A stretch of 64,000 nucleotides of DNA from Nemopilema nomurai (taxonomy: Eukaryota; Cnidaria; Scyphozoa; Rhizostomeae; Rhizostomatidae). Under the pieces are notes generated by a model that was not told where the DNA came from, ran no database searches, and saw only the letters and a list, made by a program, of their open reading frames with translations. The DNA lies in the NCBI GenBank assembly GCA_003864495.1, contig ML133436.1, positions 4,816,212 through 4,880,211 of the forward strand. The letters run 5' to 3'. This document shows positions 21,337-56,588 of this stretch, piece by piece (position 1 is the stretch's first letter; each line of letters begins with the position of its first letter). The position numbers and the translations under genes are program-made.

Positions 21337-22567
21337 CCCTTCTTTTCAAAACACATGGAAATTAAATGCCGCACCTTTGTTAAACCCATTGTTAAACCCT
21401 TTTTTTAATCAAATGCAATTTTTGTCACTACCTCGAAAAAGGAGACTTTCATGTTTTGACCGATCATCAGCCGCTGTCTCGTGCCTTTTTCATCGCCCAA
21501 TTTCTACACAGTTACAGGAATCTCTGTACGTCATTACCAAATCTCTGTTTAGCCCTTTCTCAACCCCACACCTTATTCAGGAGGCTATTGAATCACAAAT
21601 CTCTACGCTCTAAAACAATTTGTCTAGAGTTCAGTTGGTTTCCATATTACTTGAGCTAACACACATGTTATTGTTATCTTTGCTGTCGATAACGTAAAGG
21701 AGCGAAATTCAAAGTTTTCACAAACAGGTCGTTTGAGGTCGTTTATTTACCAATGTTTAAGTTAATAATTATTTCCATGCTTAGGAAAAATTAGACATAT
21801 TAAAAGGTAAAGTATTCAAACAAACTCTTCTAGGGTGTAAAGAAAATAGTGCCTCAGATTACAAACAGGGCTTTTATTATCCTTCTCTGCTCCTCTATCT
21901 TCATTTCTAAATTTGGTGATCAGAATCTTATAATCCCGCCACAAAAGTACCGCATTTCTTGCTCTCTTGAAAGAGAAAAGCACATTTGGAACAGAGGCAC
22001 ACAAATGAAACTGTGGGTCACCAAGACCACTCCCCCCCCAGTCTTTTTTGTATGAGCACATGCTGTGCACATGCTGTGATCGGATGGATCGGAAAAGTTG
22101 ATCTGGTTCAACTGCGACAGGTCTGTCATCGATCCGTGACGCATCGCAGGCAGACTTCCGATCGTTACGGCTATATGGAAACCAGGCTTTAAGATGTTTC
22201 TTCAGTAATTACATAATTAAGATCTCTCTTGCAATTGTTTTGTCCTGACGGATATTCTTCCGAAAGTTGTTGCTATCATTCAGCCCCATTCTCTATCATA
22301 TAAATGTCATCTATTGTTGTTGTTGCTACCTCCTGCGCCCTCCTGAAGAGGCCTACAATCTCTGCAAAAAGTCTCGGGACACTTGCTCCCATTTACGCAT
22401 CGCGCAAGTCGCCAAATCCCCTCGCCCCGCAAACAATATTGTGTAGCGCAAAAGTCAATAATCCTAAAAACAAAAGTGAAGAATTCTCATATATCTATGG
22501 CCTATTTTCATACACCTAACGATGAACAAAATTTTACGGAGGCAAGGGGGTTACAACCACCAAGGAG
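21337..22567. other. Intergenic stretch flanking the retrotransposon
   Basis: Nothing coding can be supported. Near 22349-22378 there is a segment (CTACAATCTCTGCAAAAAG) whose imperfect inverse appears just beyond the retrotransposon at about 27550-27576. Confidence 0.4.
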
Positions 22568-22571
22568 ACAC
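22568..22571. repeat. Target site duplication ACAC, left copy
   Basis: Matches ACAC at 27514-27517 immediately outside the right LTR. Four bases is a usual length for gypsy-type integrases. Confidence 0.85.
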
Positions 22572-22723
22572 TGTTGGACTAGTATACCCCCCGCCTATGT
22601 AAATAGTCCGTCCTTACGTATTCTTATTTACTCGTGTTCTGTTATTCATTTATTCGGTTACAGTTCTCAAATAGTAAAGTCGCCAAGTAAGAAGTCTCTC
22701 TTTTCAGCAATCTTTAGGCAACA
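22572..22723 (+). repeat. 5' LTR (152 bp)
   Basis: Begins TGTTGGACTAGT and ends TTTAGGCAACA, and is identical to 27362-27513. A TATA-like TTCTTATTTAC at 22621-22631 lies about 25-30 nt before 22652, where the self-complementary segment starts. This suggests U3 = 22572-22651 and transcription starting near 22652. Confidence 0.93.
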
Positions 22724-22725
22724 TT

Positions 22726-22738
22726 ACTGTAACCGAAT
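22726..22738 (+). promoter_or_regulatory. Putative self-priming primer-binding site
   Basis: ACTGTAACCGAAT, two bases after the LTR, is the perfect reverse complement of ATTCGGTTACAGT at 22652-22664 inside the LTR. There is no TGG tRNA-type primer site next to the LTR, and only 19 nt separate the LTR from the gag ATG. In the Tf1/sushi group, the first ~11 nt of the mRNA fold back onto such a site and are cleaved to prime reverse transcription. The complementarity is seen directly; the mechanism is inferred. Confidence 0.7.
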
Positions 22739-22742
22739 TGAC

Positions 22743-23639
22743 ATGGATGCATCGAAAAGCAGTGTTTTGTGTTTCACAGGAAACGGCGATGTTCAAGCCT
22801 TTTTAACCAAGGTAGAAATACATGCCGCACTGAAAGGATACACAGGAGAAAAGCTGGCTCAAGCGTTGGCAAGTAAACTTGAAGGGCCAGCGTTCGATGT
22901 TTACCTACGACTTTCAGCAGATGATAGAAAGGATCCAGAAAAATTAAAAGCTGAACTCAAAAAGGAATTTGAGAAGGGAAAACGAAACCGCGAAGAAGCA
23001 CTGAGTGAATTGGCGAATAGGCCAAGAAAAGTAGGAGAATCGACGCAAAACTATGCATATAAACTGCTGGAATTAGTCAAATTGGCATACCCTTCATTTG
23101 ATAACAAAACTTTGGAGGCTATTGCTAAAGACTATTTTATTAAAGGGTTGCATCCAGATATGCAAGTTGCCTTGAAATCCCTAGAAAGGTTTGATAAAGC
23201 GGAAATCAGAACCATCGCAGACGAAACAACGCGCTTAGAATTGGCAGGAATTCGTTCATTGTTGTCCGATGCTTCAAACAACAAAGGAATCTTTGGTGCA
23301 GCTAATCCCTATGAAGAGAATTCAATTGTTGATTCAATCGCTGACAAGGTGATAGAGAAATTGCAGGGCATTTCAACAAGCACTGACGACGGGGGACCAC
23401 GCAACGAAATTAGTTTTGCTGATAGAAACCGCGGCCGCGGTTTTAGGGCCCGTAATTTCAGAGCCCCAGGACGTGGCCGCCCAGTTTCTTCAAATGGGAA
23501 AATGGAACCACGCCAAATGCGATGCAGAACATGCCAAAGCACAGAACATTTGTTCCGAAAATGTCCAACAAGATTCTGCCAGGCCTGTGGTGCGCGAGGC
23601 CATGATGCTTGGGATAAGAACTGCTCGAATTTCCAATGA
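22743..23639 (+). CDS. gag: Gag polyprotein of the gypsy element
   Basis: 298 codons from ATG 22743 to TGA 23637-23639. The N-terminal and middle part is a helical retrotransposon-gag domain; an ELANRPRKVGESTQNYAYKL segment lies near residue 90-110. An RGRGFRAR basic stretch precedes two zinc knuckles: a classical C-x2-C-x4-H-x4-C (CRTC...H...C) and a variant C-x2-C-x4-H-x6-C. The protein would form particles and bind RNA. The frame remains open after the TGA into the protease, and the stop is followed by CTAG. Confidence 0.9.
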   Translation: MDASKSSVLCFTGNGDVQAFLTKVEIHAALKGYTGEKLAQALASKLEGPAFDVYLRLSADDRKDPEKLKAELKKEFEKGKRNREEALSELANRPRKVGESTQNYAYKLLELVKLAYPSFDNKTLEAIAKDYFIKGLHPDMQVALKSLERFDKAEIRTIADETTRLELAGIRSLLSDASNNKGIFGAANPYEENSIVDSIADKVIEKLQGISTSTDDGGPRNEISFADRNRGRGFRARNFRAPGRGRPVSSNGKMEPRQMRCRTCQSTEHLFRKCPTRFCQACGARGHDAWDKNCSNFQ

Positions 23640-23643
23640 CTAG
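23637..23643 (+). promoter_or_regulatory. Leaky-stop context UGA-CUA-G between gag and protease
   Basis: The gag stop reads TGACTAG, and the same frame then runs on for 86 codons into the protease. UGA followed by CUA(G) is the best-known context for efficient stop-codon readthrough, used by some alphaviruses and several animal mRNAs. The sequence is seen directly; readthrough itself is inferred. Confidence 0.6.
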
Positions 23644-24081
23644 ACGGTCCCGACATTTTGAATTTAGAGGACAATACCACTGGTGCGTCAACCGTCGTTT
23701 TAAAAGCCAAATTGGACGGAGTTTCTAGCAACGTTTTGCTTGACTCAGGAGCAGCTGTATCAATTATTGACTCGAGAACTCTTGAAAATTTGAAACTCGC
23801 AGTAAAGATAAATGCTTCAAGTGAAACACTGACAGATGCCTCAGGTAATAACATGAAAATAACTGGTTATGTAACTCTAACGTTAATATTTTTGGCCTAA
23901 CAAAGCCAGTTCTACAACAGTTCCAAATTGTTGATTCCCATTCGCCAGTCAGCATATTATTAGGCAGAGACTTTTTGCAGAAATTTGGTCAAGTGACATT
24001 TGATTTTGCAAATAACCGTGTAAGGCTTGGCCCAGCCTGGATCAGGGGGGCTGAGATAAAACACCCATACGTGTTCGGGTA
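23640..24081 (+). pseudogene. Retroelement aspartic protease, split by a frame break
   Basis: In the gag frame, 23640-23900 encodes a protease start with the active-site motif LLDSGAAVSIID (D-S-G-A) at about 23740-23770, then stops at TAA 23898-23900. The C-terminal protease signature ILLGRDFL appears a little further on in a different frame (open from about 23879 to TAG 24079-24081). The frame change near 23877-23882 is what a single-base loss would give. A second change of frame is needed at 24052-24081 to enter RT. These could be real inactivating indels, assembly errors or, less likely, programmed shifts. Confidence 0.75.
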
Positions 24082-27000
24082 GCTGAAAAAACCATCATTC
24101 CCGGTCGTTCCGAAAAATTTATCCAGGTCAAATGTGATACCAAAACGGCATTTTTAGAAGGAGATTTTGACCCCGCAACAATAGCAGGGATGACGGGTAT
24201 CTACGCATCAAGAACACGAGTGATTCCAAATTCTGCGGGTGTTTTCACGATCCGCCTGTTGAACGTTTCTGCTGAAGATATTATTTTAACTGCACGCAAA
24301 CCAGTTGGAACATTACACGCTGCCGCAACGGGAAGTATCACCCAAGGCCCAGTTAAAGGTAATCCCTCGTTTGACTATGGTACCCAACTTTCCGAAGAAG
24401 AAAAAACCACATTAATGTCCTTGATTTCTGACTACAAAGACATATTTGCGCAGAATCCAAAAAAGCCTCAGAGGAACAAAATCATAGAGCATAAAATCAT
24501 TACAGATGACTCAATGCCCATTTATCAAAAACCACGCCGTGTACCAACCGCATGGGAACCAGAAATCAATTCCCAGATCACCGACATGCTGGACAATGAC
24601 ATTATAAGACCTTCTGAATCACCCTGGAATAGTCCTATCATTTTGGTTAAGAAAAAAGATAATACAACACGTTTTGTTTGCGATTTCCGAAAGTTAAATG
24701 ATGTGACCAAAAAAGACACATACCCTTTGCCTCACATCAGGGACGTTATTGATAAAATGGCCGGCGCAGTTTACTGGACAACTCTTGATGCAGCATCAGC
24801 CTATTGGTCTATGCCGTTGAAAGAAGAAGACAAAGAAAAAACTGCTTTCTCTGTCCCACGAGGAAAGTTTGAGTTCAATGTAACGCCATACGGTTTATGT
24901 AATGCAGGAGCATCGTATCAAAGATTAATGGACATTTGTCTCTCAGGGCTACCCGCCGAACGAACGTTGGCGTACATGGATGATATTGCCATTTTTAGCA
25001 GAACCTTCGACGAGCATTTAAAGGACATTGAAGCAGTATTCAGCAGATTGCGTAACACAGGCATCACGTTGAAGCAATCAAAATGTGCATTTGCGAAAGA
25101 AAGCGTGGAATTTTTAGGATACGAATTGTCCATGGCTGGTATCAAACCACAGAAACGTCTCACCGACGCGATACATGATTTTGAACGCCCAACAACCAAG
25201 AAAGATTTAAAGCGTTTCCTAGGACTTGCAGGATTCTATCGAAATTTCATAAAAGATTTTGCTGAAATCTCTAAGCCACTCAATAAACTCACTAGTGAGC
25301 AAGTCGTGTATCAATGGGACCCGAGTTGCGAAAGAGCTTTCATTTCCCTGAAAAACGAATTGTGCTCAGAGCCCACGCTAGCCTTTCCACGATGTGGTGA
25401 ACGATTTATTGTAGAAGTGGATGCAAGTGACGTAGCAGTAGGAGGCGTACTTTCTCAAGTCCAGAATGATAACAGTATCCATCCTGTGGCCTATTTTTCC
25501 ACCACGCTTTCAAAATGTCAACAGAAATGGTCTACCCACAGTAAAGAAGCCTTTGCCCTGCTGACAGCTGTACGAAATTGGCATGTCTATCTCGCTGGAA
25601 CGGATTTTGTTTTGAACTCCGACCATAATCCGTTAGTTCACCTACGCAATCAGAGGGACCCTCGTGGAAAATTTGCAAGATGGTTATCAGAACTCGAAGA
25701 ATACAGTTACACAGTCCAATACCTACCGGGAAAATTGAATGTGAAAGCAGATGCGCTGTCAAGGACACCTGGAGCTACAGCTAATACAGATCACTTCGAT
25801 ATGATTTTTGAAGATAAGGTGTATGCAATCAACCATACTACCAAAGACTTCAAAGAACAATTGGAAACAGAACAAAATTCCGACCCAGTAGTAGGACCTG
25901 CTAAGCGTTTGATTACTGAAGGCAATACCATTCGGGAAGGACGCTTGAAACGAGTTTCCAGTCAATTAAGAGTAGAAGATAACATCCTCACTAAGTCAGG
26001 AAGACCTATTTTGCCCGCTTCAATGAGACGCTTTGTGACACTCGCTATCCATGAAATGGCCCACTTTGGCACTGATAAAACATACGCACTCCTCAAAGAC
26101 CGATTTTATTGGCCCAATATGTACCAATTCGTTCACCGATTCATCGCCACCTGTTCGGTATGCCAACGCACTAAACGTGACACACAAGCGCCTAAAGCAC
26201 CCCTGTTGCCGTTGCACATCCCAGAGTCACCGATGGAATTTGTGTCCATCGATATTGCAGTACTACCACCAGATGACAGCGGTTTCAAATACATGCTCCT
26301 GATCGGTGATGTCTTTTCAAAATACATAGAGGCAGTGCCCATGAAAGATCAGCATGCTACAACAGTATGTCAAGCTTTCCGAGAATCATGGATCTTTAAA
26401 CATGGATCCCCATACTTCCTTTTGTCTGATCAGGGATCAAACGTAGATGGAAATTTGATTCATGAACTTTGCAAAATATTCAACATCGAAAAGAGGAGAT
26501 CTTCCGCGTACCACAGTCAAGGTAATGGTTTTGCTGAACGCAACATCGGCAACATCAGAGAGGTATTACGTGCTTTGCTCCTCGATCGCGACTTACCTCA
26601 AAAGCAGTGGCGTCTCCTCCTACCAGAAGTGGTTTTCGCACTAAACACCAGTGAGAACTCAGTCACGAAATGCACACCCTATTTCATAGTATTTGGAAGG
26701 AAACCAACATTGCCACCAGACCTCATTCTCGGCAGTAAGACCCCCCAAGCTACCGATATCGCAACAGCATCAGACTATGCAACAGAAACGAAAGTACGTC
26801 TCGCTGAAGTATATTACCACGTCGCGACAAGACTCGGTTTGAATCGCACCCAGATGCAGAGACAGTACAATAGGAATATAAACTTCCATAATTATCAGAA
26901 GGGAGATAAGGTGTGGTTAAGAAGGAAGTATTTCAAAACTGGCGAAACCCAGAAATTAGCTCCCCGAAGAAATGGCCCCTGGACCATTTTAGAGAAGCTT

Positions 27001-27348
27001 GCAAACGGAGTGAACTTTCGCATACAAAATGATTCGACAAGGAAAAAGCAAGTCGTTCATCATAATCGATTATACCCCGCCAAGATTATAGACACACCAG
27101 AGAATGCGCAACAAGACGACAAACAACAAATTGAAAGCGACATTGTGGCTCAAGAGATTCGGGACAAAATCAATGATACTTTTATAGACGAGGATTTTAA
27201 TAGCTCAGACGAATCGGACACTAACGCAGACGACCGCGAAGACCTGGGACAGAATCGAAGGTACCCGATGAGAAATCGGAGACAGAGAACAATAGAAGGG
27301 AGCATTCCCTGGGACAGTATTAACGTTGTCAAACATCAAATCTTATAA
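24052..27348 (+). CDS. pol: Pol: reverse transcriptase, RNase H and integrase of the gypsy element
   Basis: The frame is open from 24052; its first ATG is 24190, giving 1052 codons to TAA 27346-27348. Numbered from that ATG: RT with the catalytic LAYMDDIAIF (YMDD from residue 262); RNase H with DASDVAVGG near residue 411 and NSDHNPL; integrase zinc finger H-x3-H...C-x2-C (HEMAH...CSVC) near 621-657; and the catalytic core D (VSIDIAV, about 687), D (SDQGSN, about 745) and E (FAERN), with exactly 35 residues between the last two. A GPW-type module follows. No chromodomain is evident after it; the tail is acidic then basic. All catalytic residues are present, so this part looks functional although its link to the protease is broken. 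Confidence 0.93.
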
Positions 27349-30800: not shown

Positions 30801-33800
30801 AACAGCTGCCTTTCAATACAGATATACCTAATATAACCGCCTACCAATATCAACAAACTATCGCTAGATTATCAGTAATGACCAGAATGTGTGCTCACAG
30901 GGGAACAAGGTAGGAAATACTAACAATGAGCCCTTCATTCATATGTGAACATTGTTTTACAATGGAAAAGTTGATCAAATGAAAAAATTTCCATGACGGA
31001 AAATAAAGCCATTTCAAGATCAATAAGTGCTCTTTTCTGTATCAATTTCTGTAAATTTACGCAGAGTGAACATCTGTTGAGAGGTACAAAAGGAAGAAAG
31101 TGGAAGAAAAAGAAAGCAAATGGAAGAAAGAGGAAGAGATGGGAAGAGAGAGTAAAAGAGAAGAAGATAGACATAAAAAGAGGAAGAAAGAGGAAGAAAG
31201 TGGAAGAAAGAGGAAGAAAGTGGAAGAAAGAGGAAGAGATGGGAAGAGAGAGTAAAAGAGAAGAAGATAGACATAAAAAGAGGAAGAAAGAGGAAGAAAG
31301 TGGAAGAAAGAGGAAGAAAGTGGAAGAAAGAGGAAGAGATGGGAAGAGAGAGTAAAAGAGAAGAAGATAGACATAAAAAGAGGAAGAAAGTGGAAGAAAG
31401 AGGTAGAAAGTGGAAGAAAGAGGAAGAGATGTGAAGAGAGAGTAAAAGAGAAGAAGATAGACATAAAAAGAGGAAGAAAGAGGAAGATAGAGGAAGAAAG
31501 AGGAAGAAATAGGAAGAAAGAGGAAGAAAGAGGAAGAAAGAGGAAGAAAGAGGAAGAAAGAGAAATAAAGTGGGATAAAAAAGCGGTTAGATAAGTAGCT
31601 AGGGACTGGTATTGACTTGAGAAAAACAATCAAATGAATTTGAAAAATGTTTTCAAAGAAAATGACCAAATTTTGCAGGAAAAAGATCTCGAAAATTCAT
31701 ATCTGAAGGGGATAAAAAGAAGGGGCTTAAAAAGAATAACCAAGAAGTCTAGTTTATCGCAAGTCTTAAATAATCTGACAACATCATCCAAAAGTGATCA
31801 ATACTGCCCAATGTTTTTATCATACACCAACATCCAACAAACGGCTATAATCACGAGAACGTTTCTATACAAGGGAAATAGTTGGAGATAGTTCAAACAT
31901 GGAGAATATTTGAACTCGTTTAAGAGGTAGGATAGTATCCCCCTTTCTGATAATAAACGCAAATTACAACAAGCTTTAACTTTACAAAGACAATTATTTC
32001 AATATGCCTGTTTCTGTGATACAGGGCTGAAATACACGGTCAGCTAAAGATGATCAGTTTCAACGGACGATCTATTTTGGTCAGTTTTGCATGATCGATA
32101 TTCGATGAGCACTTTAATGGCAAGGCGTCTGAAGACTTGGCTAATATCGAAAATGACACAGGAGAGATTCAACAGTTTGGCCATTATCCACTCTCATAAA
32201 TGCAAGACTGATACATTGAACTTGCTTTACAATGGAAACCAATTTTATAACAATGAAAACAGGCCCCCTAAATTTTTGAAAATTTGTCAGGGAGGACATT
32301 GACAAAGAGTTATTTTAAAACATATCTCTGCTCTAGTAAAATCGTTAAGCTGCCTAATTCAATCGGCCAATAGCTATCGGCCTAATTCAAAAAGGCTTTA
32401 TTATATGTGTTATCAGAACAAACATTTTCTACAGTTTTAGCCCCCCCCCCTCATTTTCTTCAACCCCACTTTCCGCGGTCTATTTTGGTCAGTTTTGCTT
32501 GATCGATGTTCGATGAGCCCGTTTACACGATCAGTCGAAACTGATGATATAGTGCTATTTTCTTTCATTTCGCGATTTTGGCGACACAAAAGTTGCTTTA
32601 GTTACAGCCGTGGTGTCAAAACGAAAGAAAATATCTTTCTGAGTTTATCAAAGATCTATTAGACTCTTCAAGCGATCAACTAAGCTCTTCAAAATTCTGC
32701 TTTATTCCATTGCAATCTTTGCTTTATTCCATTGCAATCTTTGCTTTATTCCATTGCAATCTTTGCTTTATTCCATTGCAATCTTTGCTTTATTCCATTG
32801 CAATCTTTGCTTTATTCCATTGCAATCTTTGCTTTATTCCATTGCAATCTTTGCTTTATTCCATTGCCAATCTTTGCTTTATTCCATTGCAATCTTTGCT
32901 TTATTCCATTGCAATCTTTGCTTTATTCCATTGCAATCTTTGCTTTATTCCATTGCAATCTTTGCTTTATTCCATTGCAATCTTTGCTTTATTCCATTGC
33001 AATCTTTGCTTTATTCCATTGCAATCTTTGCTTCATTCCATTGCCAATCTTTGCTTTATTCCATTGCCAATCTTTGCTTTATTCCATTGCAATCTTTGCT
33101 TTATTCCATTGCAATCTTTGCTTTATTCCATTGCAATCTTTGCTTTATTCCATTGCAATCTTTGCTTTATTCCATTGCAATCTTTGCTTTATTCCATTGC
33201 AATCTTTGCTTTATTCCATTGCAATCTTTGCTTTATTCCATTGCAATCTTTGCTTTATTCCATTGCAATCTTTGCTTTATTCCATTGCAATCTTTGCTTT
33301 ATTCCATTGCAATCTTTGCTTTATTCCATTGCAATCTTTGCTTTATTCCATTGCAATCTTTGCTTTATTCCATTGCAATCTTTGCTTTATTCCATTGCAA
33401 TCTTTGCTTTATTCCATTGCAATCTTTGCTTTATTCCATTGCAATCTTTGCTTTATTCCATTGCAATCTTTGCTTTATTCCATTGCCAATCTTTGTATAA
33501 GCTGGCTATAACATCACATAAACTCGGTTTTTCCTCCCGACCGCGGTTAGTTTGCTTGACGCACTTTGCTTTGCGAATCCTTGTCTTCGAAAAATAGAAT
33601 CCTCCATGTGAGGCTCAAGGAGGAGATTAACTTTTCGTCGCTTACAAATCAACTGACAAACTTATTTTTAGTCGTTGTAATGAGTCGCTACAGCTGCAAT
33701 GATTTGGCAAAACATTTTGAGATAAAAAAAAGGAATATCCTAACATTTGCATGTGGACTGTCTCTCAAACATAAAGTCACAAATGGCATAATGCTGAGCA

Positions 33801-36216
33801 AGGGTAATAATAAAATATGGAAAAGACACAGCGGACACAAAGAGTCCTTTCTATTAATTTATCGAAAAAAGAACCACAAAAGCTGTGGACGTAGAGCCAC
33901 CACAAAAAGCCATGCATTTTGATACTGACAGTGATACAAGCTCATCCAGTGATGTCAACTTACATATCTAGAAAAATGTGAACAATTTTGGGACTTTGTT
34001 TTATCATACATCAATATATTTCTCCATCTCTTTTCTATTTCAACTTTACAGGTGGTACACTACCATTTGAAACAACTGCAATCATATGAAACATAAACCT
34101 CATCAAAAACTAAATGAACATTGACCATCAGTGTAGTCTTCAACAAACTTTTTCAACAAATTTAGAACAAGATCTTCGTTGTTTTATTAGATGTTTGTCA
34201 GTGAGCCTCTCAAGCCCCAAATGCTTGTTATCAAAAACTGAAAATGTAAAAACAACTTAAGCGTACTAAAAATGCTCTGTTCCATTAGAGCAATTGACTA
34301 GAATAAATGGATTAGAAGAATTATTGCCATTCAAAACAAGATGCCAAAAGAATAGTAGAAGACAGCTCTTCAAAATAACAAAATAACTAACCTGGTTTGC
34401 AAAAGTGGACTTGCTCAAAAGCGGTACAGAGCAGAAAAACCATTGATATTGTGAATTCCTCAAGCACAGTAAATGCTTTGATGACAAAATTCCCTCCAGT
34501 AGAAATTATATTTATAGCAGTAACAAATTCCCAATAGAGCAGATATGAAACAAGAGCTTCTTGCATGTCTGGTTTTTCAGAGCAATCAATACTGCCATCA
34601 GCAGTTACCTAGGTATTGAATGATAAAGAAATTAGATGCCCAACAAAAACAGCAATAAAAAGAATACAAAAAGGAATTTGTGCTAGCAACACTGAAACTG
34701 AAGATTGGTTTTTAAAAAATTGTGAAAACCCTATGACACATCTATTAAGTAAATTTTATTACCTTTCTCAGTTTATGGACGAAAAGGGACTTTGCCCAGT
34801 GTGTATGATTAATATCAGGATCATGTTACTTATCTGGCCATAGGTCAACAATTTTATGACATTTTGCAATTAGGTTGGGTTGGGCATTGTTGATTGCTAG
34901 TTTTTAGCTCCTCTAGAAAAACTGCATAGATAGAGGTTCTAAAAACTGTGAGGTAGTTGTAGAATCAAGAGGTAACAGGATGTCTGACCCTGAAAAAATT
35001 TCAAAATAGTGTGAGAGTACTTCTTAAATTTGTGTGATTTGAGGAATAATGACATTGTTCGGCTGTGTATAAAAATTGTAAATTTTATGAGCTAATCTTT
35101 TGAAATGGAGAAAACTAGCCTTTTATAACAAATGATGCATCTCGTGCTAGGAGACCCCTCATTTTTAAAATAGGGATTATGCCAATTTATTCGATGAGTA
35201 GTTGGCATAGCTATACCTTAAAATGATCCGGTTGTGTTTATTCAAACAGATATAAAGGGGTTTTTCGAACTCAAACTCAAGATCATAACATTTTTTCAGC
35301 TAATCAATTCATTAAATGAAACATCATTTAAGTTTGTTATTAAAAATTCAAATGCCATAGTTCGGGGTTGATTCTACAATTTATGTATATACATTTATCT
35401 GATGCATGTTTTTTTCATATCAAGTGTTGCACTCAAAGCATTTGCTTTGGCAGTCATTTTGCTGCAAGGCAGGGTGATATGGTTGTCTTTGAGGATGAGG
35501 AAGACTTGTGTAACCAATTGTCGTATAGGCAGTGAGGAATGAGTGGAATGTCTTACCAAATTCACACTCTTGCTCTTTTCACATGCATCTTTCAGGTGTT
35601 CCAGGTTTTTCAAGCTTGCCAAATCACCAGTGAAATCTTCACCAAAATGCCAGTTGTTAAGTGTTTTCTTAATAAGCCGGTCATCAGTTATCATCTCCCC
35701 TATGTTGTTGCCTTCATAATATGGATTAAATGTTGTTGCTCTCCAGCTCAATGACAGATCTGGGAACTTGTTGACAATGTGATGATTTAAACATGTCACA
35801 AACGCGCCTGGGGCTTCACATAAATGAACACTTGAAAATTTCCCTTCCAGGCAACCCTGATCTCTTTTCACCAGTTCAAAAGTATTTAGAATCGTGCAAA
35901 ATTTCAGCCATGCTTGGGTACACAGCTCTGCATTCAAAACTGTTTTACAATGTCTTGACAGGTGGCCACATAAATTCATGAAATTTGTATGTGTCCGCCA
36001 TATTTTAATATCAAAGTCATTCAGTCTCGACTTTGTAAAGTTGAGTTCATCTTTCAGCTCTTCAATCCGCCGCACAAAACTGTCATAGAAAGGCTTACTA
36101 ATTTCCTTGTCCTTGCAGCTTTCCTCTTCATCTTTACATCTGACATCCTTACTTGGTAAAGTAAGGTCAAAACATTTCCCAAACAAGTTTCCCCACTCTA
36201 AAGAGATTGCAGACAT
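27811..36216 (-). CDS. CMTR2: Cap-specific mRNA 2'-O-methyltransferase 2 (cap-2 methyltransferase)
   Basis: Four exons on the minus strand: 36216-35557, 34608-34392, 29672-29178 and 28835-27811 (660+217+495+1025 = 2397 nt, 798 residues; phases 0,1,1). CMTR2 adds the 2'-O-methyl group to the second transcribed nucleotide of capped mRNA. Residues 131-139 (HLCEAPGAF) are the SAM-binding motif. LCTQAWLK (Lys105), TADGS (Asp224) and FVIK (Lys264) are the K-D-K catalytic residues of the RrmJ-type fold. GNSEVYIVC follows in exon 3. Exon 4 is a second, degenerate methyltransferase-like domain, which is normal for CMTR2. An in-frame TGA lies just upstream of ATG 36216, supporting this start. Length is close to the human protein (about 770). 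Confidence 0.93.
31088..31570. repeat. GA-rich hierarchical tandem array
   Basis: Built from a 10-bp basic unit (GGAAGAAAGA/GGAAGAAAGT). A larger period of 100, 100 and then 90 bp is marked by recurring GAGAGTAAAAGAGAAGAAGA followed by TAGACATAAAAAG, near 31141, 31241, 31341 and 31431. On the CMTR2 sense strand the array is almost pure pyrimidine. Long open frames across it on both strands are low-complexity artefacts. Confidence 0.93.
32071..32518. repeat. Pair of 40-bp direct repeats
   Basis: TCTATTTTGGTCAGTTTTGC and the following 20 bases at 32071-32110 recur at 32479-32518 with about two mismatches. The spacing is 408 bp, inside CMTR2 intron 2. Confidence 0.8.
32697..33496. repeat. 22-bp minisatellite (about 36 copies)
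   Basis: Nearly perfect tandem copies of a 22-bp unit that runs CTTTATTCCATTGCAATC then TTTG. Four copies have an extra C (TTGCCAATC, near 32866, 33042, 33065 and 33484). Because 22 is not a multiple of 3 and the unit lacks stops, all three plus frames stay open for about 250 codons and encode the same 22-residue repeat peptide. It lies in an intron and on the antisense strand of CMTR2. Confidence 0.97.
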
Positions 36217-38722
36217 CTTTAACAGTACCTTGATGATTCACCAAACAAAGTTTGAGCAAACGACCCTTGTTATTGCCATTTGGCCAAACTTTCTTCCCTT
36301 CCCCAAAGCTGATGAACAAAAGCCTCGTTTTGAGAATTAGTACCTTGTGTGCGTTAGAAAAGTATCAAATTTTGCGATTGTTTGTAACAGTAAAAATAAA
36401 ATGCTTCACAACGGGATCACAATAACGGAAACGACACATTTACATAAGACAATACATACTTGATAACAAAATTAAGATTAATCAGTGTTCATTGCCTTCA
36501 TGCTTCAGGCTCGAGTTTTATCGATCCAAAAATCAACCTGGATGTTGACAATATCGAATGGGCTTAAATTTTGGAGATTTCCGTTTTTTAGATTCTACGC
36601 GTTTTTGTTAAGCTCCATTTCCCAGGGATGGTCTTGTTATTCTTTGGTCAAAAGGAAGTTCCATTTCGTTGAAAATTCAATGTCATTCATACAAAAAGAA
36701 TGCTTATTGTGCAACTACTACGCATTGATGCGATCTCAAAGTGTTATAGCGATGTGTATCATTATACATTTTATTTTGAACTTTAAAACTTTGCTTGATA
36801 CAAGAAGACGTGGAGATGGTGAACTGTGATGGTCGTTTTTGTTTCTGCCACCGAAAATCGACAATGAATGAGCACTGTCACCTGCCACGTCGAAAGCTTT
36901 AACCTTGCAAAACAATTTTGCAAAGCCACGCCCATAGGAAATGTGCGTCAAGGATGTGAATGATTATCGACCTTTGCTTTCTGATTTTTGCGAAGAACGG
37001 CATAAACATCCACGATGGCTTTGTACCTTAGTCTGCGAGATCAGGTCAATGCTTTGAAAGAGATTTCTACAATTTCCTAGGTATTATGGTTGCTCTACAG
37101 TCTTCGAAACTAACGGTAAGAATGAGTCAATGCATGACCTTACAGCCAAAATTGAAAACATATATGTGCTAGGTGTACACACCAGAAGTGATCATGTAAT
37201 CTGTAATTTGTGTTTCTGTAAGTGGCATAGACACAATTATTGGGCTCTTGGTGACTATAACAACAAGAGATGAAGCCATTGTGTCTCACTGCGTTATCAA
37301 TAACTGTTGTGAAGAATTTGTCAATCTGATGGACGGCACTAGTATAACTGAATGCCAAACAATCTTGTGCAGTATCACCATGCTTTCTGCCTTAAGAAAA
37401 GTTTTAACGAAAGTCGCAATTATACCTTATAGACACATGTAGAATTTTCTGAAAGACGTTTTCATTTGAGATGACTAGAAGGCCAGACGAAGTCGTTAAG
37501 TTCAAATAGTGATGGCCCATTTGGGTTGACAAAGTATCTGAGCAATGTCATTTTGAAGAGACTCAGAAAACGTTAAAAGGATTTTGCATCATCCAACAAA
37601 TCTTTACAAAGAGATGTTTCTGGTGGTCTACGTTGTCAATGTGATTGCACGTGACTGGTTCCAGACGGGACTGGTTGTTCCGGGACAGATATTCGACAAT
37701 CAATCCGTTACTTGATGAGACAGATATCTCTCTACAATATTTAGATTAATGGGTAGGGGACCTCAAATTGTTGCATTAATTTCAGAGCTTTCTCTCATAA
37801 ACTAAATCCCTACTAAGTATAGTCGAGCGTTCGGACCAGCAGCTTAAATATCGAACCAGTTCGGGAGCTGTTCTAATCTGCTATCGATAGAAATCCAATA
37901 GACAAATGAAACGCAAATCCAATATCTTTGATAAAGCATAATTATTGCGAAAGAACTTGTTTGAAAGTACGATATTTGTAAACGGTCTTTAAGGCTTCGT
38001 CTGAATAGAGAAAATTTTTGATTGAATTTAGCGAACAAAGGAGAAAGAGCTCACATGACCCGTTCTGGGTCACGCAAATATGAATGTCACTTAGGACTCG
38101 CTTAGTGATAGGTGGCACCTATGGAAGCATCTCACCTTCCTTCAATCATGTTCAACTGCTTAAAATTCTTTATTAGGCTAGTTAACGGAATGACGCAGAG
38201 AGGATTGCACAGCCACCCAGGGCGATGCAAAAAGTTGTGAGCAGAAAAAGGCACAATTTGGAGCTATCTTGATCTTTTTTGCATGAATTTTCGAGTTGGA
38301 GCAGACTTTTTACTACAATCTTCTCAAAGATACCGTCAGCAACTAGGACGCTTAGAGATATGCCTTTTGGCTCTGATACTAATTAAAGACCTTGCTGACT
38401 GTCACTGAAACAGTGAATACACAGTGACAGGAGAAGGAACGATAGCACGTTTGTGACTATTTGCCGCTTGGTTGGCCTAGTCATCACACATGCTAGTGCT
38501 GTACTCGAGCCAGTCAACTGGTTTTGGGTTGAACTTATATACCAAGAATTAAAGTAGATGAAATGGTTTATAGATACCAGCTGAGCTTAAATGTTTACTA
38601 GAAGAAAAATGGTTAATCATGGTCGAAAGCAACGACGAAACAAGTTACATCGTACATGCTCTTTGTAATCAATAAGCGTAGTATCTAGCATAACACATGT
38701 CATTCCGATTCTCGTCAAACAG
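36217..38722. other. Intergenic stretch upstream of CMTR2
   Basis: It includes the CMTR2 promoter region and one copy of a 75-bp dispersed repeat. An ATG in a good context at 37016 (CACGATGGC) opens only 21 codons (MALYLSLRDQ...). I could not connect it to further exons. Confidence 0.4.
36411..36485. repeat. 75-bp dispersed repeat, copy 1
   Basis: Runs ACGGGATCACAATAACGGAA... to AAGATTAATCAG. It is identical to 42345-42419 except for one C/T difference, in the same orientation. The flanks on both sides are unrelated. Confidence 0.93.
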
Positions 38723-43854: not shown

Positions 43855-46494
43855 ATGGAGGCCACAGAAATTAAACGCAAAAGGTATGTCTTTAACTTCC
43901 TATCTATAAAATGCATAAATTTCGATCAAAGGAACTTAAACCGATTCGCTTTTTCTTTGCATCTATGCAATATACTCTCATTTTCACATCAAGATTGAAA
44001 ATGTTCTCTATGAAACTGGTCAGATTTGCAAATTTTTCAGCCAATAGTAAAAAGACTAGCCCCAAAAACCCCGCTACGCGGGCTCAACTCCTTCTGTGGG
44101 AAAAGAATTGCCCCTTAAAACTACCCCAAAACAAATTAGGCATTTTAGCCTCGGCAAGACAAGAGCCTCGCATCGACAGCAAAAATGACGTAATGCACAG
44201 CCACGCACCGCATACTTGAAACGAAACTTGTCAACGAAAAATGACTCGCCATCCTTCGCGTGCATCACTCGCACTCCTGTGACAATCGCTAGGACGGGGT
44301 TCGCAAAATATGAAGGGATGACACCCACAGTCTGCCACTGTTATTTAAATCTAAATAGAACATATCATTGTGTTCAGGACGCAATCATTGGCTACAAATC
44401 AACTAATCAAAAATTGTCCCTTTCAGTGGCACTTTCCATAAGTCTTCAAGCAAGAAATACAAAAAATCGACTAGCTTGGAGGAAGCAGAGATATCAAGCG
44501 GTCAGTTCAATAGTGCTGAGAGTAAAGACAGTTTAGCACGGCAGATTTTCAACATTATTCTTGATGACTGGATGTATAGTTATGGAATCATGTATAATGA
44601 AGATGATTATGCCGTGCTGTTTGATTTGCTCAAAAAGTCTGTGGAAGAGGAGTCGTCTCTTAGATTCTTCATCCCAGGTTTTCCGTGCAAAAGTTGCAAC
44701 ACGAAAAAGAAGGTTCTTGGAACGCTGCCAGATTTTGCTGAGGTTCTTGCCATTCGCTCCCTTACAAAGACTCTCAGAAAGATAGAGGCAATTTATGTCA
44801 AAGGAGCAAAAATGACTATCCTTTCGGACTATCATACCTTTGACCAGTATATTGGAGTCGAAGAGGAAACGTATCAGACTTACCACGAGGCACTTAAACA
44901 CCTGGTAAACGATGCAGGCGCTTCTGATGTGATTGAACTCATTTCTTTGTCCAGTTTCCCTGAGTTCCAGAACGTACCTGGACCTGAAGCGAGCAAAAAG
45001 TTAAGGGACGAATATGGAGGTACTCTCGTATTGCAAAATTTTGAAGAATGCTTGCGAAATGACCGAATGATGTTAGAAAAATACAAAAAGCTGAAGAAGT
45101 TTATGCAGTTTGACCAATCACATCGTCTTCCCGGATCACCTAGGGCAAATAAGACAAGATCATTCATCAAAAGAATTGCTCGTGGAATGCTGGCGCAGGG
45201 GATAGCACTGGACAATTTTTTGAAGCATTACATAATAAGAAGGAAGTTCATCCGCTTAAGTGTTCACAACCATCACCCATCCACGGGGAAGTTTGCGATC
45301 GACATGTTTAAAGAGCACCAATGTAGCGGAGGGATCTTGCGCACGCCATGGCACCATGCGGTTGTCTTCGACTCTGCATCCGCTGAGTTCATGATCAACC
45401 ACCGGCAAGGGGTGGAGAAGGTTGAGTGTGGCGACTCAAGCCTTGTTACTGTAATGTACAAAGGAGAGCCATGGTTGCTGCTGAGAGTTTACTTTGACAG
45501 CCAGGTTAAGGCAGGCTTCACTGCAATGCCAAGCTTCCATGTCTCCATGGTAAGAGGCTCGTGTGGCCTTGTGGTAGAATGTAAAACCGATTCAGGCAAA
45601 CCAATTCCAACTTCGGTGTTTCAAGAGCAGTCTCTAACTTCCTTGGTCAAAGAGTTTGGCTTGGTTGTCATGAGGGGATTCAAACAGTTCGGTTCAGAAG
45701 AGGAAATTGTTGAGTTCTATAAGACCAAAGCAAAATATGGAATCGTGAAGTGGAAATTTGGTTTTGTTCACAAAGTCACTCCAAATAAGGAAATTCCTGG
45801 GTATGTCAACAGTAATGGAGGCCTGCCCATCCATTTTGACCTAACTGCGCCCCCAAAGTACATGCAGATATCACAGGAGGAGCATAGTTATGAGGAATTC
45901 GTTGTCCGAGAGTTCTTACTTTACTGCAAAGACATCGGAATGAAAGGTCAGGGAGCCACTGTGTTCGTTGATACCCGAGGGGCTGTTTTATCTATCAACG
46001 GGAAACTGGCCACAAAATGGAAGCAGACAACCATAGCCTACGAAACTGAATTGAATTCAAAACCCGAAAGAAACAAAGAAGAAAGCAATCAGAAGGCGAA
46101 GAATGAGTCATACTTTGGCGGCATTGGCAACGTCTACACCTATCCACTAGTGATCAGATGCCCATGGACCGGAAGTGACGTTTTACGTTGGTGGCAAACG
46201 TGGACAGCAGAGAAGAACCCCCAGAGCGAGCAACACAACTGGTCCTTTATCAAATCCTCTCCGTGCAAAGAGAAACAAACAATACAGGAGCTGGAAAAGG
46301 AGATTGAAAAAGTGGCCTACGATGAGAGGTTCTTCTTCCAGCACTCGTACGAAGTGGGAGACCAGGTGTACGTCAACAACTACACCATGCTTCATGGAAG
46401 AACTGGGTTTACTGACACACGTGAACTGTGGAGATTGCAGGCAGTTCCGCCGAGTGGCAATGTGCCTAAATACTTCAAGAATAACTTCTTTTAA
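43855..46494 (+). CDS. Isocyanide (isonitrile) synthase fused to Fe(II)/2-oxoglutarate oxygenase (PvcA-PvcB / IsnA-IsnB type)
   Basis: Two exons, 43855-43883 (MEATEIKRK) and 44427-46494, join in phase 2 and give 698 residues. Residues ~45-330 match the DIT1/PvcA isocyanide synthase family: PGFPCKSCNTKKKVLGTLPD near 94-113, IEAIYVKGAKMTILSD, the RLSVHNHHP-GKFAID stretch and RTPWHH near 316. Residues ~395-690 match the TauD/PvcB oxygenases: HFD (His479, Asp481), GATVFVDTRGAVLSI, distal His666 in NNYTMLHGRTGF, and Arg675/Arg679 (RELWRLQ) for 2-oxoglutarate. In bacteria the first enzyme turns an amino acid (Tyr or Trp) into an isonitrile using ribulose 5-phosphate, and the second oxidises or decarboxylates it. 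Both active sites look complete. No signal peptide, so cytosolic. Substrate unknown. An acceptor (TTTTTAG) precedes the ATG, so a 5' noncoding exon probably exists. Confidence 0.88.
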
Positions 46495-51400: not shown

Positions 51401-54400
51401 TGCTGCACAAAATATATTAGCAAGTTCGTCTTACAGAGACATTATCTTGAAGATTTGGTTTTCCAATCAACAGGTTGGCAATGAGAGTGCACTACTCTAA
51501 GCGAGAGACTATAAGAAAATAGTTACCTGACCTGAAGTCCACAAATTACTTGAATGTGGATGGTTTTTCAATGCTAATTTACAATTACTCTAAGGCTCTG
51601 AGGAAATGCGTAGATGTCTTAGGAACTAACGTCATGACACGGGTTTCCAATTTCTCCACTTTTTGATTGTAGTTTCTACTGCAAATGCGCTGCAATGGCA
51701 CAGAGAATGGGGTACGCCTACATTGCGCTTCATAACTTTGGCGAGTGCTGGTCTGGCACTACAAATACATCCTTAAAGCTAGAATCGATTTTCAAAGCTT
51801 CCTCTAAGAACTGCATAACAGGAGACTTTGCTTTCTGTGATCAAACATTCAAAGGAGTATGCATTGGTAAAGATGAAGCAAGCTTTCTCTACAAGCTTCC
51901 AATGGAAACAAGTAAGTCTCCAATTTGAAGCTAAATTTTTTCTTTCTTCTCGGTGTACAATACGTAGCTGAATCTGCGTTCCAAGCCACTTTGCGGCAAA
52001 GTTAACACCTACAGTTCACTTGTAGCCAACACTATTTCACAACTTTTAGTCTTCCAAATATCAATTTTGCCCCTTTTGGCTCTATCTCTCAGTGCAGATT
52101 TCAAAAACTCAATACACCACTAAATTGAATTCTGCATGTACCTTTTATATATAATTATTATTCATTCATGTTTATACTGCAAACATGTTTATTCACCATT
52201 TGTCTAGCTGCAAGTAAGTAGACAGGTTCTTATATATTGCACCTTGATGAACAGCAATGGCTTCTTCCATTTTTCTGAAAGTCATAACCTAGAAAATTTT
52301 TCTGAAAGTCATAACCTAGAACTTTTAGACGCAATGAATTTGTCCAAGGACATATACAGAAAATAATTCACCTAAACGTTTCCTGTCATTTGAAACCTGC
52401 TGTTTGACATGTGCAAATGACGCTTAAACACGGTCATTTAAAAAGTGTTACTTAGATAATATAGGATCTAATATAGGATCTAATCCTAATAACGTAAGGG
52501 AATTTGATAAAGCCTTCCTAGACTTAATGAAACCATGACTATTGCTCTTATAATTATTCATGTTGGCTTATGTCTTTACGTGCTTGTTGGATTGAACAAC
52601 TAAGTTATAAAACTGAAGATTTTTGAACGATTCACTGTTATTTGATAGAAAATTCATTCTTGGAATGATCTGCTAAGAAAAAGTATTGATAAAATAACTT
52701 GTAAGCATAGAGCGCAGAAGTTGAACAGCGGAAAGCCATTAACGGTCACTAATATTACAGCGTAACTGATTCTAAATCAACACCCATGTCATTGAAATGA
52801 TAAATTTTTCTAGTTCATCATTGCGTTATTCATATTAATATTTATTGCGTTGTATTATATGTTATGGCCCTAAGGGGGTGTTCTTGTTTATGGGGAAAAA
52901 ATATTACAGCGCTGTGGAGCTTACGAGTTTCCTAGGCTTCATCATTGAAATGAAAGAAAGTTCAATGCATTCAAAAAACGTAGTTCACATGTTCATTTCA
53001 ATGTTATTAATTGATACTAAAAATAAATAAATATTAAATAAATACTAAATAAGATACTAACTACAAAATTGAATGACTTCAAGCACCTACGTGTTGGTCT
53101 AGCTCAAACCATAAGAAGGCGTGCAGGTAGTTTGAGTTTTCTCCCAAAGCACAAAAACTGTCACGTTGACGCTGTGTACTTTCTATAATAAAGCAACACA
53201 TCAAAATAGATTTAATACTTTTTATTGATCAAAAGGCGAATTCACACCTTGTGTTGGGCAATAATAATTTAAAAATAACCTTAGGCTAAATATCGAAAAT
53301 TTTAGCAAATAGAAAAAATTGGATATTTTTATGAAAGAGGGTGTAAAGGTGAAAGCAAGAATATCAACTCATAACTAGAGCGGCCATCCACGACATTGAA
53401 TTCACTTGAATGTTTCAGGCAAAGTGATAGTCAGTGGAGGCTACACAAAATGGTCAAGGTGGTCAGATTGCAGTGCTTCGTGTGGCGGCGGATATAGGAA
53501 AAGAGACCGGTCATGCACCAACCCAGCTCCATCTCAAGGCGGCAAGGACTGCTCCGGGCTTGGGCCGACAGATGACATAAGCACTTGCAACAAGCATGCT
53601 TGCATCGCAGGTGAGTGAATAGGGTTGGTAGTTTATGAAGAAATTAGGTTCAAATTGACAGAAGCTCATTGTCTCCGGTAAAAATGCACCTCTTCTTCAT
53701 TAACCAAGCCAAGAAACATCGCCGTAAATGCTTTGCTATGAAAACGGGCACTTTTTTAGTCTTATTTGATAAGCCTTGGAGATATTTTTCTTCGATTTCT
53801 CTACATCTTGGGTCTCCCTCAAGACACTATGACCAAGTCACTAAAACGGTTCAAAAGCAACAAGGAAGTTAATCAATTCCACATCCAAAACTTTAGACTT
53901 CACATAAAAGAATGAGAAAATTGACTTTGATCGTAGGCTTGCACTTAGCGAATAGAGCTTGGTCACTGTCTGGAGATTCTTTTATTGTGAGAGGAAGGTT
54001 GTCAATTTATTTTGCTTCTAGAACGAGCAGGTCAAAGAGCTGAGCCATAAGCCTTCAAAAGAACGATGACTTTTATACTCGCATTGAAAACGTAATTTCA
54101 CTTGAAGAACCAGCCTGCTGCTTACCTTGTAAATCTGTACACTATATACATAGCAAAGAATCATCCTTTATTGCAGCTTTTATAAGCTTGCTTTTTGCTA
54201 CAGCTTAAGGTAACATGATTTTCTGATACCTCTTGAGAACTGAAAATTCACGAAAGACAATCGAAATTGATTGACAAGCATACTGTTCTCTATAGCTTGT
54301 AGACAGGCCGTGGATTTTGGCATCATCATAGATGCATCAAGAGAAATGAAAAAGCGCAACTTTATGGAAGTGAAGAAATTTGTAATGAAACTGGGCGACA

Positions 54401-56588
54401 ATCTGGAGATATCAAGTGGAAAGGTGCACATAGGGATAATCCACTACGCTAAGTTTCCATATGTCGATTTCACGCCTAGAAATGTTCTTTACTATGGCAG
54501 AAAGCAATTCAGAGCAAAGGTAGCTTCGATTGTCTACACTCAAGGTAAGTATTTCTGAATCAAAGTAAAACAATAGGGAGTTCTTGATTTTAGAAAAGGG
54601 ATATGAACGCAAGTCACTGCTTGCTTGGCAGCATCGCTTAACTGGATTAGCAAATAGAATTCGTCCTCATCCCGCATTCCTCTGACTTTAATGTGAGGTT
54701 TTTAACAGGTGATGTAGCTTTATCGTTTATGCTGTTGGCAGAAGAATGCAGCATACAGCATTGCCCTATTGATCATAAGGAGCGAAACGCATCCTTGCTT
54801 CTAACGAAATTTATGATGCTTGGAGAATCGCAAGAATCATAGAAATCAAACGGCAGAGCTACAGCGATACTCGAGGACCCTCAAGGCCTAGCCTTGTAGC
54901 CATTGTTTGCTCAGCTTGAAAACAGCTGTCAAGGTCCTATTTGTCAGGGAGACTATTGAGACACCTCAAGAGAAATATGTGCCCCTTTTCACTCACTTTG
55001 CCAGCTAACTTGAATTACAAATAAGAATATAGATTGACCTTACTATCTATGACAGGTGGAAAACGTCTTGACAGAGCTCTTGAGGCAGCTGAAATGGAAT
55101 TTTTTTGCGACAAATGCGCTCGCAAAAAAGCAGCACAGGCCCTATTGGTTATAAGTACAGAGATTGCAGAAAGCAAGTTCAGAGACATCGCGTTTTTTTC
55201 TTCACGACTTAAGGTAAGACTTTTAATAGAAAGGAGATCCAACTTGCATGAATGCTCTGCCATCTGAAACTGACACAAATTCAACCAAAGCAATAGCAAA
55301 AAAGAGCCATGTACATCAATTTCACTCTTACCTTGGGAATTCGTAAGAGTACCGAAGATGTAGAATTTGGCAGGAAGGGCTGGAAGATCAACAAATTGCA
55401 AGCTTCTAGCCTTAAATTCCACGGAGACTTTATTGAAAAAAATCTATGGTGTTTATATTTAAGCTAGCCAAATGATCCTGCATGCTCACTTTCGCAACAA
55501 ATTTTGTACTGTGGCTTCATGAAATCACAGCAAGAGGACCACATTCGTGGTTTCAAAGATAACTTCGAGTTGGTCGATGCTTTTTTCATATCAGTGCTCC
55601 GAAAGGCATTGCGGAGCTCAAGCATACAGTATGCATGGCTCAAAGATGGCTTCGAGGTGTTTACTGCAACATTACTATAGGCCAAAACGTAACTAAGCAA
55701 AGCCCTTAGATTTTTGAGATTTCCTTCAGTCCTTCCGAGTCTCTTGCTACCAGAAAGTAAGGCTTTACTAAATATAGAAAAGTCAAGGCAGAGTTAAAGA
55801 GGTTAAGTAGAATATATTTTGATATAAAATGAATGATAAAAAAGAGTAAATTAGAATGAAAGAAATATTAATAAATGAATTATATTAGTCGAAAAAATAA
55901 GAAGTCAAAGGGGTGAAGAATGAAATTGTAAGAAAGTAAACGGCGTGGGATGGAATAAAAAATGTATAACGATGAAAGGTGATAATAAAGATGGTAATGG
56001 AGTAGCTCTTTCAATAAATATGAAATGCCATGCAAATAGCGTTTCAGTAGTATCATTGGCTCTAAAGGCTTTAAGCAGCAAAGACGGCAAGTAACAGCTT
56101 CGATTATGCTCCTGTGTAGCTGGTTTATTTCTTCACTTTCTTCAAACCTCACTTTTGCTAGTGATCCTTATTATATTTTAATACTGCAACAATTCTTTCC
56201 ATATTTAGATATTTTACAGGATTAAGTACACCTTTGAACGTTAAATCTTTTTACATTATTAGCATTTGATGTGTCAAATTATTAGCATATAAATTACTTT
56301 GTGTAGAAGGTGTTTTTCAATTGAAGGAAGTTTGCAGATAATCAATACGAATTTATATGTGTTCCTCCAATTTGTTATTTCATTATTTGCTATGTTCCAT
56401 TGATTCAGGCCAAAGGCGTCGTTATCATTGCCGCTGGTGTCGGTAGAAATGCATCGTTTGCAGAACGTAGCAAAAGTGCCTCGAAGCACGCTGATGTGCA
56501 CCTATTCAAGCTGGAAAACTTTCATCAACTGAAGTTGAAGGCGAAAAAAGTTTCATTATTGGCATGCAATTCCAATCGTGTACCGTAA
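48462..56588 (+). CDS. Secreted WSC/apple-like, thrombospondin type 1 and vWA domain protein (coadhesin-like)
   Basis: Seven phase-consistent exons: 48462-48513, 50372-50537, 51673-51911, 53419-53610, 54296-54544, 55056-55213 and 56409-56588 (1236 nt, 411 residues). Residues 1-17 form a signal peptide (MRNFKIGTIISILALAK). Residues ~25-150 are a cysteine-rich WSC/apple-like module (VGCFRDE..., CAAMAQRMGYAYIALHNFG then ECWSG). Residues ~157-213 are a TSP1 repeat with KWSRWSDCSASCGGG. Residues ~218-410 are a vWA domain over three exons (VDFGIIIDASREM ... AKGVVIIAAGVGRN). The metal site DxSxS reads DASRE, so ion-dependent ligand binding may be lost. Such module sets are common in cnidarian matrix and adhesion proteins. 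Domain boundaries mostly coincide with phase-1 introns, the usual signature of exon shuffling. Confidence 0.82.
48713..48933. repeat. 22-bp minisatellite in intron 1 of the TSP1/vWA gene
   Basis: About ten perfect copies of a 22-bp unit containing TTGCATTCTTATAGCAAGG then TTG. Unrelated in sequence to the 22-bp array in CMTR2. Confidence 0.96.
52272..52322. repeat. Tandem duplication of about 26 bp
   Basis: TTTTTCTGAAAGTCATAACC and the following CTAGAA occur twice in a row, inside intron 3 of the TSP1/vWA gene. Confidence 0.85.

Follow-up and report, generated by a model that had tools for sequence, protein, structure and literature searches.

The 64,000-nt stretch of Nemopilema nomurai DNA analysed here (contig ML133436.1; hereafter the window) contains a fused two-domain gene on the forward strand at 43855-46494. 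The single 698-residue product joins an isocyanide synthase (ICS) of the DIT1/PvcA type to an Fe(II)/2-oxoglutarate (2OG) oxygenase (DOX) of the TauD/PvcB type, an architecture referred to below as ICS-DOX. A first-pass annotation of the locus had proposed this composition, which was borne out by Pfam matches, an AlphaFold2 model and structural matches.

Structure of the gene and its protein

The gene is predicted from the DNA to begin with a 29-nt exon (43855..43883) that ends at a phase-2 donor, AG/GTATGT (exon end AAAAG/GTATGT), followed by a 543-nt intron (43884..44426; GT...CAG, 3’ end CCCTTTCAG) and a second exon (44427..46494, stop included) carrying all of both enzyme domains. Joined, the exons give 2097 nt in frame, or 698 residues and a stop. 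The open reading frame (ORF) that contains exon 2 (44407-46494) runs for 695 codons from stop to stop; shuffling the window 100 times at the mononucleotide level gave a longest stop-free run of 192 codons (mean 142). Within exon 2 there is no in-frame ATG 5’ of the methionine of the sequence MYSYG, and the residues ahead of it (SLARQIFNIILDDW) form a confident helix in the model and can be aligned with relatives; the start codon must therefore come from an upstream exon. Scanning found a 29-nt phase-2 first exon 5’ of two of the three intact copies of the gene on another contig, C112 (copies 1617 and 2048). These two are 98% alike and so count as one independent instance; the same scan found none 5’ of the third intact copy, 1629. 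The splice junction, 43883/44427, is predicted from these sequence features.

The DIT1_PvcA domain (PF05141), at 44632..45420 (exon-2 residues 69-331), was matched with an E-value of 5.9e-49 and 167.4 bits against a curated cut-off of 26.4. The TauD domain (PF02668; E 4.3e-17) lies C-terminal to it in the same polypeptide, at 45625..46437 (exon-2 residues 400-670); residue numbers below are those of the full protein, which equal the exon-2 number plus 10. The NCBIfam equivalog for L-tyrosine isonitrile synthase, NF045653, scored 82.6 bits with a cut-off of 600, and judged by such scores the ICS half is related to that enzyme and is not its orthologue. The AlphaFold2 model is confident (pLDDT 87.6). 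Ranked by VIA-align Z on this model, the top structural matches were PvcA/PIsnA for the ICS half, which has the PvcA fold, and PIsnB/PvcB for the DOX half; PvcA/PvcB and PIsnA/PIsnB were also the PDB sequence matches of the respective halves.

Active-site positions were assigned from pairwise alignments and PMC9467999. The predicted iron ligands are His479 and Asp481 of an HFD motif (45832..45840; PIsnB His101 and Asp103) and His666 (46393..46395; PIsnB His250). Arg675 and Arg679 lie in an RELWR motif (46420..46434) and correspond to PIsnB Arg261 and Arg265, the latter being the carboxylate anchor, and Trp452 corresponds to PIsnB Trp74, the tryptophan partner of anchor Arg679, so that the HxD...H metal site and the anchor are both present. 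Conservation was counted over 47 animal-type rows, including three C112 copies, with gaps set aside. Here “animal-type” is a label given by similarity and tree position; by record, only the source-genome rows, P0032 and P0038 are tied to animals, and P0038, a truncated protein, was used in these residue counts only. The iron ligands were found in 41/41 (His479), 40/41 (Asp481) and 37/37 (His666) rows, and Arg675, Arg679 and Trp452 in 37/37, 38/38 and 40/42. On the ICS side, Lys98, Asp112, Glu115 and Asp144 were invariant (47/47 each), as were His290 and Trp318 (46/46), with Arg286 and His319 at 45/46. The metal ligands, both active-site arginines and the ICS residues are thus conserved, in agreement with the proposal that both active sites are intact.

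Genomic setting and copies

The assembly comprises 212.9 Mb in 226 contigs, of which the one bearing the window (C70) is 5.3 Mb long. A profile search found 49 Wnt exon matches in the same genome, and TSP1 (~53448-53603) and VWA (~54322-54552) exons lie ~7-8 kb downstream of the ICS-DOX gene. GFP and innexin profiles gave no matches in the genome, but controls were equally silent. No biosynthetic gene cluster was recognised around the gene: a six-frame Pfam search of ~46.5-61.5 kb returned only TSP1 and VWA above cut-off, and no match reached it in the three forward frames covering 36.3-43.8 kb; in the first 36 kb of the window, Pfam coverage consisted of six single ORFs.

PF05141 has nine matches in the genome, one at the window gene and eight on contig C112, which we read as seven gene copies in groups at 1.610-1.630 and 2.036-2.049 Mb. 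Three of the seven are open across both domains. About half of the residues of the C112 proteins are identical to those of the window protein (dN ~0.46, dS saturated), and between copies 1617 and 1629, 46 changes are synonymous and 37 nonsynonymous (dN/dS 0.22). The stretches at 1.602-1.641 and 2.025-2.057 Mb form inverted arms that hold the ICS-DOX copies in a nested palindromic arrangement; over their longest segments the arms are 97.6-99% alike. They may reflect a joining of haplotypes in assembly or a real duplication, and the copy number is for that reason unsure. ICS-DOX is a resident animal gene family, and the earlier claim of a resident gene with flanking animal genes holds, given the Wnt-bearing genome, the downstream TSP1 and VWA exons and the C112 copies.

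Relatives and ancestry

To our knowledge, the characterised makers of ICS-type enzymes are bacteria and fungi. PMC5974471 divides these enzymes into single-domain, ICS-DOX (bacteria and fungi) and ICS-nonribosomal peptide synthetase classes and describes fused ICS-DOX proteins, namely Vibrio cholerae IsnAB and fungal XanB and IcsB; the fusion itself is therefore not new. As eukaryotic holders of ICS, the results of that paper name fungi, oomycetes, one amoebozoan and one moss, and its discussion contains the single word “metazoans”, with no species given. The accessible part of PMC10153163 contains no “animal” or “metazoa” term, and that of a 2025 review on the chemical defences of Medusozoa no “isonitrile” or “isocyan”. 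No description of an animal ICS-DOX enzyme was found in the open-licence literature among the matches listed. What stands of the pairing noted in the first-pass annotation is its fusion in an animal gene, an occurrence apparently undescribed so far; the architecture was already known.

Bacterial ICS-DOX proteins of the V. cholerae IsnAB type (Algicola, Pseudomonas spelaei, Vibrio penaeicida) have the same domain order in ~600-650 aa and are 27-36% identical to the jellyfish protein over the best segment; unlike them, the latter has paralogues and comes from a nuclear gene that is split by an intron near its 5’ end. The Algicola and P. spelaei fused proteins keep the iron ligands, as the jellyfish protein does, whereas iron ligands have been lost from the oxygenase half of the sampled Vibrio and Marinomonas fused proteins. 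At the Marinomonas and Vibrio loci (L019, L020, L021) a separate, intact oxygenase gene that bears HWD and LHGR motifs is found upstream. Fungal XanB, of the xanthocillin cluster, and IcsB, compared by description only (PMC5974471), share the two-domain architecture. In fungi, ICS-DOX genes have P450, hydratase-like and transporter genes as cluster neighbours; the scanned parts of the window gave no recognisable example of any of these. PvcA/PvcB and PIsnA/PIsnB are encoded by separate genes, in contrast to the one fused jellyfish gene, and yeast Dit1, of the same PF05141 family as the ICS half, is a single domain without an oxygenase, which the jellyfish protein is not. As a separate observation, a HAD-family phosphatase is fused ahead of ICS-DOX in the bacterial protein P0043, and an ORF with a HAD-like motif (L023:5005-5859) lies immediately 5’ of ICS-DOX in Pseudomonas corrugata; a HAD phosphatase near ICS-DOX could possibly contribute an extra sugar-phosphate step.

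A protein search listed 43 relatives, 41 of them at 36-70% identity and two (P0042, P0043) at 29%, the best among the matches listed being P0001 at 70%. Those named by organism in this list come from Clytia hemisphaerica (P0032, 43%) and Rhopilema esculentum (P0038, 50%). Five full-length relatives (P0024, P0030, P0031, P0034 and P0035) are on contigs of ~2.2-2.4 kb, a size that may suit transcripts and is no proof of them. Occurrence in both hydrozoans and scyphozoans suggests that the gene was acquired long ago, either inside Medusozoa or earlier. On viral contigs, 33 pattern matches included no relatives. Scanning of bacterial and archaeal genomes returned 13 relatives, all gammaproteobacterial, led by Algicola sagamiensis (36%) and Pseudomonas spelaei (35%). 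Matches were found in 8 of 369 sampled genomes of Algicola’s class (E <= 1e-3) and 8 of 394 of its order (E <= 1e-20), with Algicola the only unbroken fused one in either sample, and in 17 of 298 sampled genomes of the genus of P. spelaei (E <= 1e-60).

Trees were built for each domain, as the first-pass annotation had proposed, and for the whole protein. They held 27 animal-type and 11 bacterial fused rows, together with 14 stand-alone ICS or 12 stand-alone oxygenases. The animal-type rows included two of the seven C112 copies and 24 of the 43 animal-type P proteins (P0001-P0045 without P0042 and P0043), 19 truncated or near-duplicate ones being left out; P0046 was excluded from all counts. 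Among the rows sampled, both halves grouped with isonitrile-type enzymes and with no other TauD or DIT1 branch. The branch separating the animal-type rows had support of 94/98 in the ICS tree and 91/98 in the whole-protein tree, and the group uniting them with seven gammaproteobacterial fused rows (Algicola, Pseudomonas spelaei and Vibrio among them) had 100/99 in both domain trees. These values are to be read with long branches in the domain trees and odd composition of three Pseudomonas rows in the whole-protein tree. The same grouping of both halves indicates that they share one history, which is what the transfer of an already fused gene would produce. Of the “bacterial or fungal origin” first suggested, the trees lean to the bacterial side, which is likely among the animal-type and bacterial rows sampled.

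The alternative that survives best, and which we still regard as unlikely, is that the family descends from a fungal or other eukaryotic ICS-DOX, or was inherited vertically with wide loss, and did not come from bacteria. Fungal ICS-DOX proteins exist (PMC5974471 and PMC10153163) and are not among the rows of the trees, and the animal-type rows are sister to the seven nearest bacterial rows, which do not enclose them. Fused and stand-alone bacterial enzymes that are more remote, however, fall outside this animal/gammaproteobacterial pair, and no relative among the 43 matches listed bears a fungal name, most bearing no name.

Predicted chemistry

We consider it probable that the locus is a resident, intron-bearing animal gene for a predicted isonitrile maker and desaturase, likely acquired in fused form from a gammaproteobacterium and later duplicated. 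By analogy with PvcA and PIsnA, the ICS half would draw on an aromatic amino acid, likely tyrosine but possibly tryptophan, for the amino group and on ribulose 5-phosphate for one carbon to yield an amino-acid isonitrile, which the PIsnB/PvcB-like half, using Fe(II), 2OG and O2, would desaturate to a vinyl isonitrile or isocyanoacrylate. The already-fused gene would have been taken up by the common ancestor of scyphozoan- and hydrozoan-type jellyfish, and would have gained its small 5’ exon before being duplicated. The interpretation first offered for the locus is supported overall; self-made isonitriles and their use are a prediction.

Several observations weigh against this interpretation. 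The transcript, protein and metabolite of the jellyfish gene are predictions from DNA, and PMC7345447 argues that yeast Dit1, a relative, is no isocyanide synthase. The trees cover animal-type and bacterial rows, and the animal-type branch in the oxygenase tree has support of only 73/91. Four of the seven C112 copies are interrupted. Foldseek alone puts carbapenem synthase 4oj8 (4.3e-13) level with PvcB 3eat (4.8e-13), with PIsnB ahead of both (1.6e-17). According to PMC9467999, PIsnB-type enzymes are told from PvcB-type ones by positions 107 and 188 (Lys107, K/R, and Asn188, N/H, versus Leu and Cys), and PIsnB Gly104 contacts the substrate. The jellyfish protein has Pro485 and Trp599 at positions 107/188, which is neither published signature, and Leu482 in place of Gly104; because of these residues, the rule gives no exact reaction or product.

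A different function for the ICS half, the formation of N-formyl-tyrosine for a cross-linked cuticle, cyst or capsule wall as in Dit1, with no isonitrile product, seems to us quite improbable. The shared family PF05141 is consistent with it, as is relative P0016, which we take to be an Aurelia gene model and whose source name is “Spore wall maturation protein DI...”. Dit1 has been argued to yield formyl-tyrosine (PMC7345447), but it is single-domain (PMC5974471), whereas here the oxygenase persists, and its iron ligands are intact wherever a row extends over this half. The top structural matches were PvcA and PIsnA, though no Dit1 structure was among those compared. We similarly doubt that the protein is a catalytic relic or has been repurposed, one or both sites no longer making isonitriles. 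The interrupted C112 copies would fit such decay, as would the sister proteins of Vibrio and Marinomonas, which lost oxygenase iron ligands and have a separate intact oxygenase gene nearby, but three C112 copies are open, as is the window gene, the catalytic residues are conserved and dN/dS between two C112 copies is 0.22. Bacterial contamination or a very recent insertion, which the bacterial nature of the nearest non-animal-type relatives and the long, unbroken coding exon might suggest, is rejected as extremely improbable by the 5.3-Mb contig in a 213-Mb genome with Wnt genes, the TSP1 and VWA exons ~7-8 kb downstream, a best bacterial identity of 36% versus 70% to P0001, the codon split by the intron and the exon of the same length in C112 copies.

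Isonitriles are metal-binding, potent bioactive groups. If the favoured interpretation of a bacterially derived isonitrile maker is true, an animal lineage has kept and multiplied a bacterial-type natural-product enzyme. Whether medusozoans produce isonitriles, and for what purpose, becomes a testable question, and Clytia, a genetic model that carries a relative, lends itself to knock-out and metabolite profiling.

A mercaptopyruvate-sulfurtransferase-like gene with a CGSG loop lies on C112 at ~1606.1-1607.0 kb (ORF L010:1583-2041 = C112:1606583-1607041), ending 1.85 kb from an interrupted ICS-DOX copy in convergent orientation; a mirror ORF (C112:2052284-2052745) is 2.0 kb from open copy 2048. 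With only 12 rhodanese matches in the whole genome, such closeness by chance is a priori unlikely; the proximity is a post hoc observation at one locus, and gives a weak hint of a sulfur step. Tridentatols have the structure p-hydroxystyryl-N=C(SMe)2. They are UV-absorbing compounds of the hydroid Tridentata marginata (PMC12194522). A first animal-encoded isonitrile pathway, in which tyrosine would be converted to p-hydroxystyryl isonitrile and sulfur added by the sulfurtransferase to give the tridentatol skeleton, is a speculative idea to which we attach a low probability; if true, it would account for the carbon skeleton of compounds whose biosynthesis is unexplained.

Elsewhere in the window are a Gypsy-type retrotransposon with gag-like and pol-like ORFs (22347-27348), a tandem array that reads as LLYSIAIFALFHCNLCFIPLQS repeats in three frames (32602-33597) and, on the reverse strand, an exon with a sub-threshold FtsJ methyltransferase match (35398-36237), perhaps part of a cap methyltransferase 2 gene.
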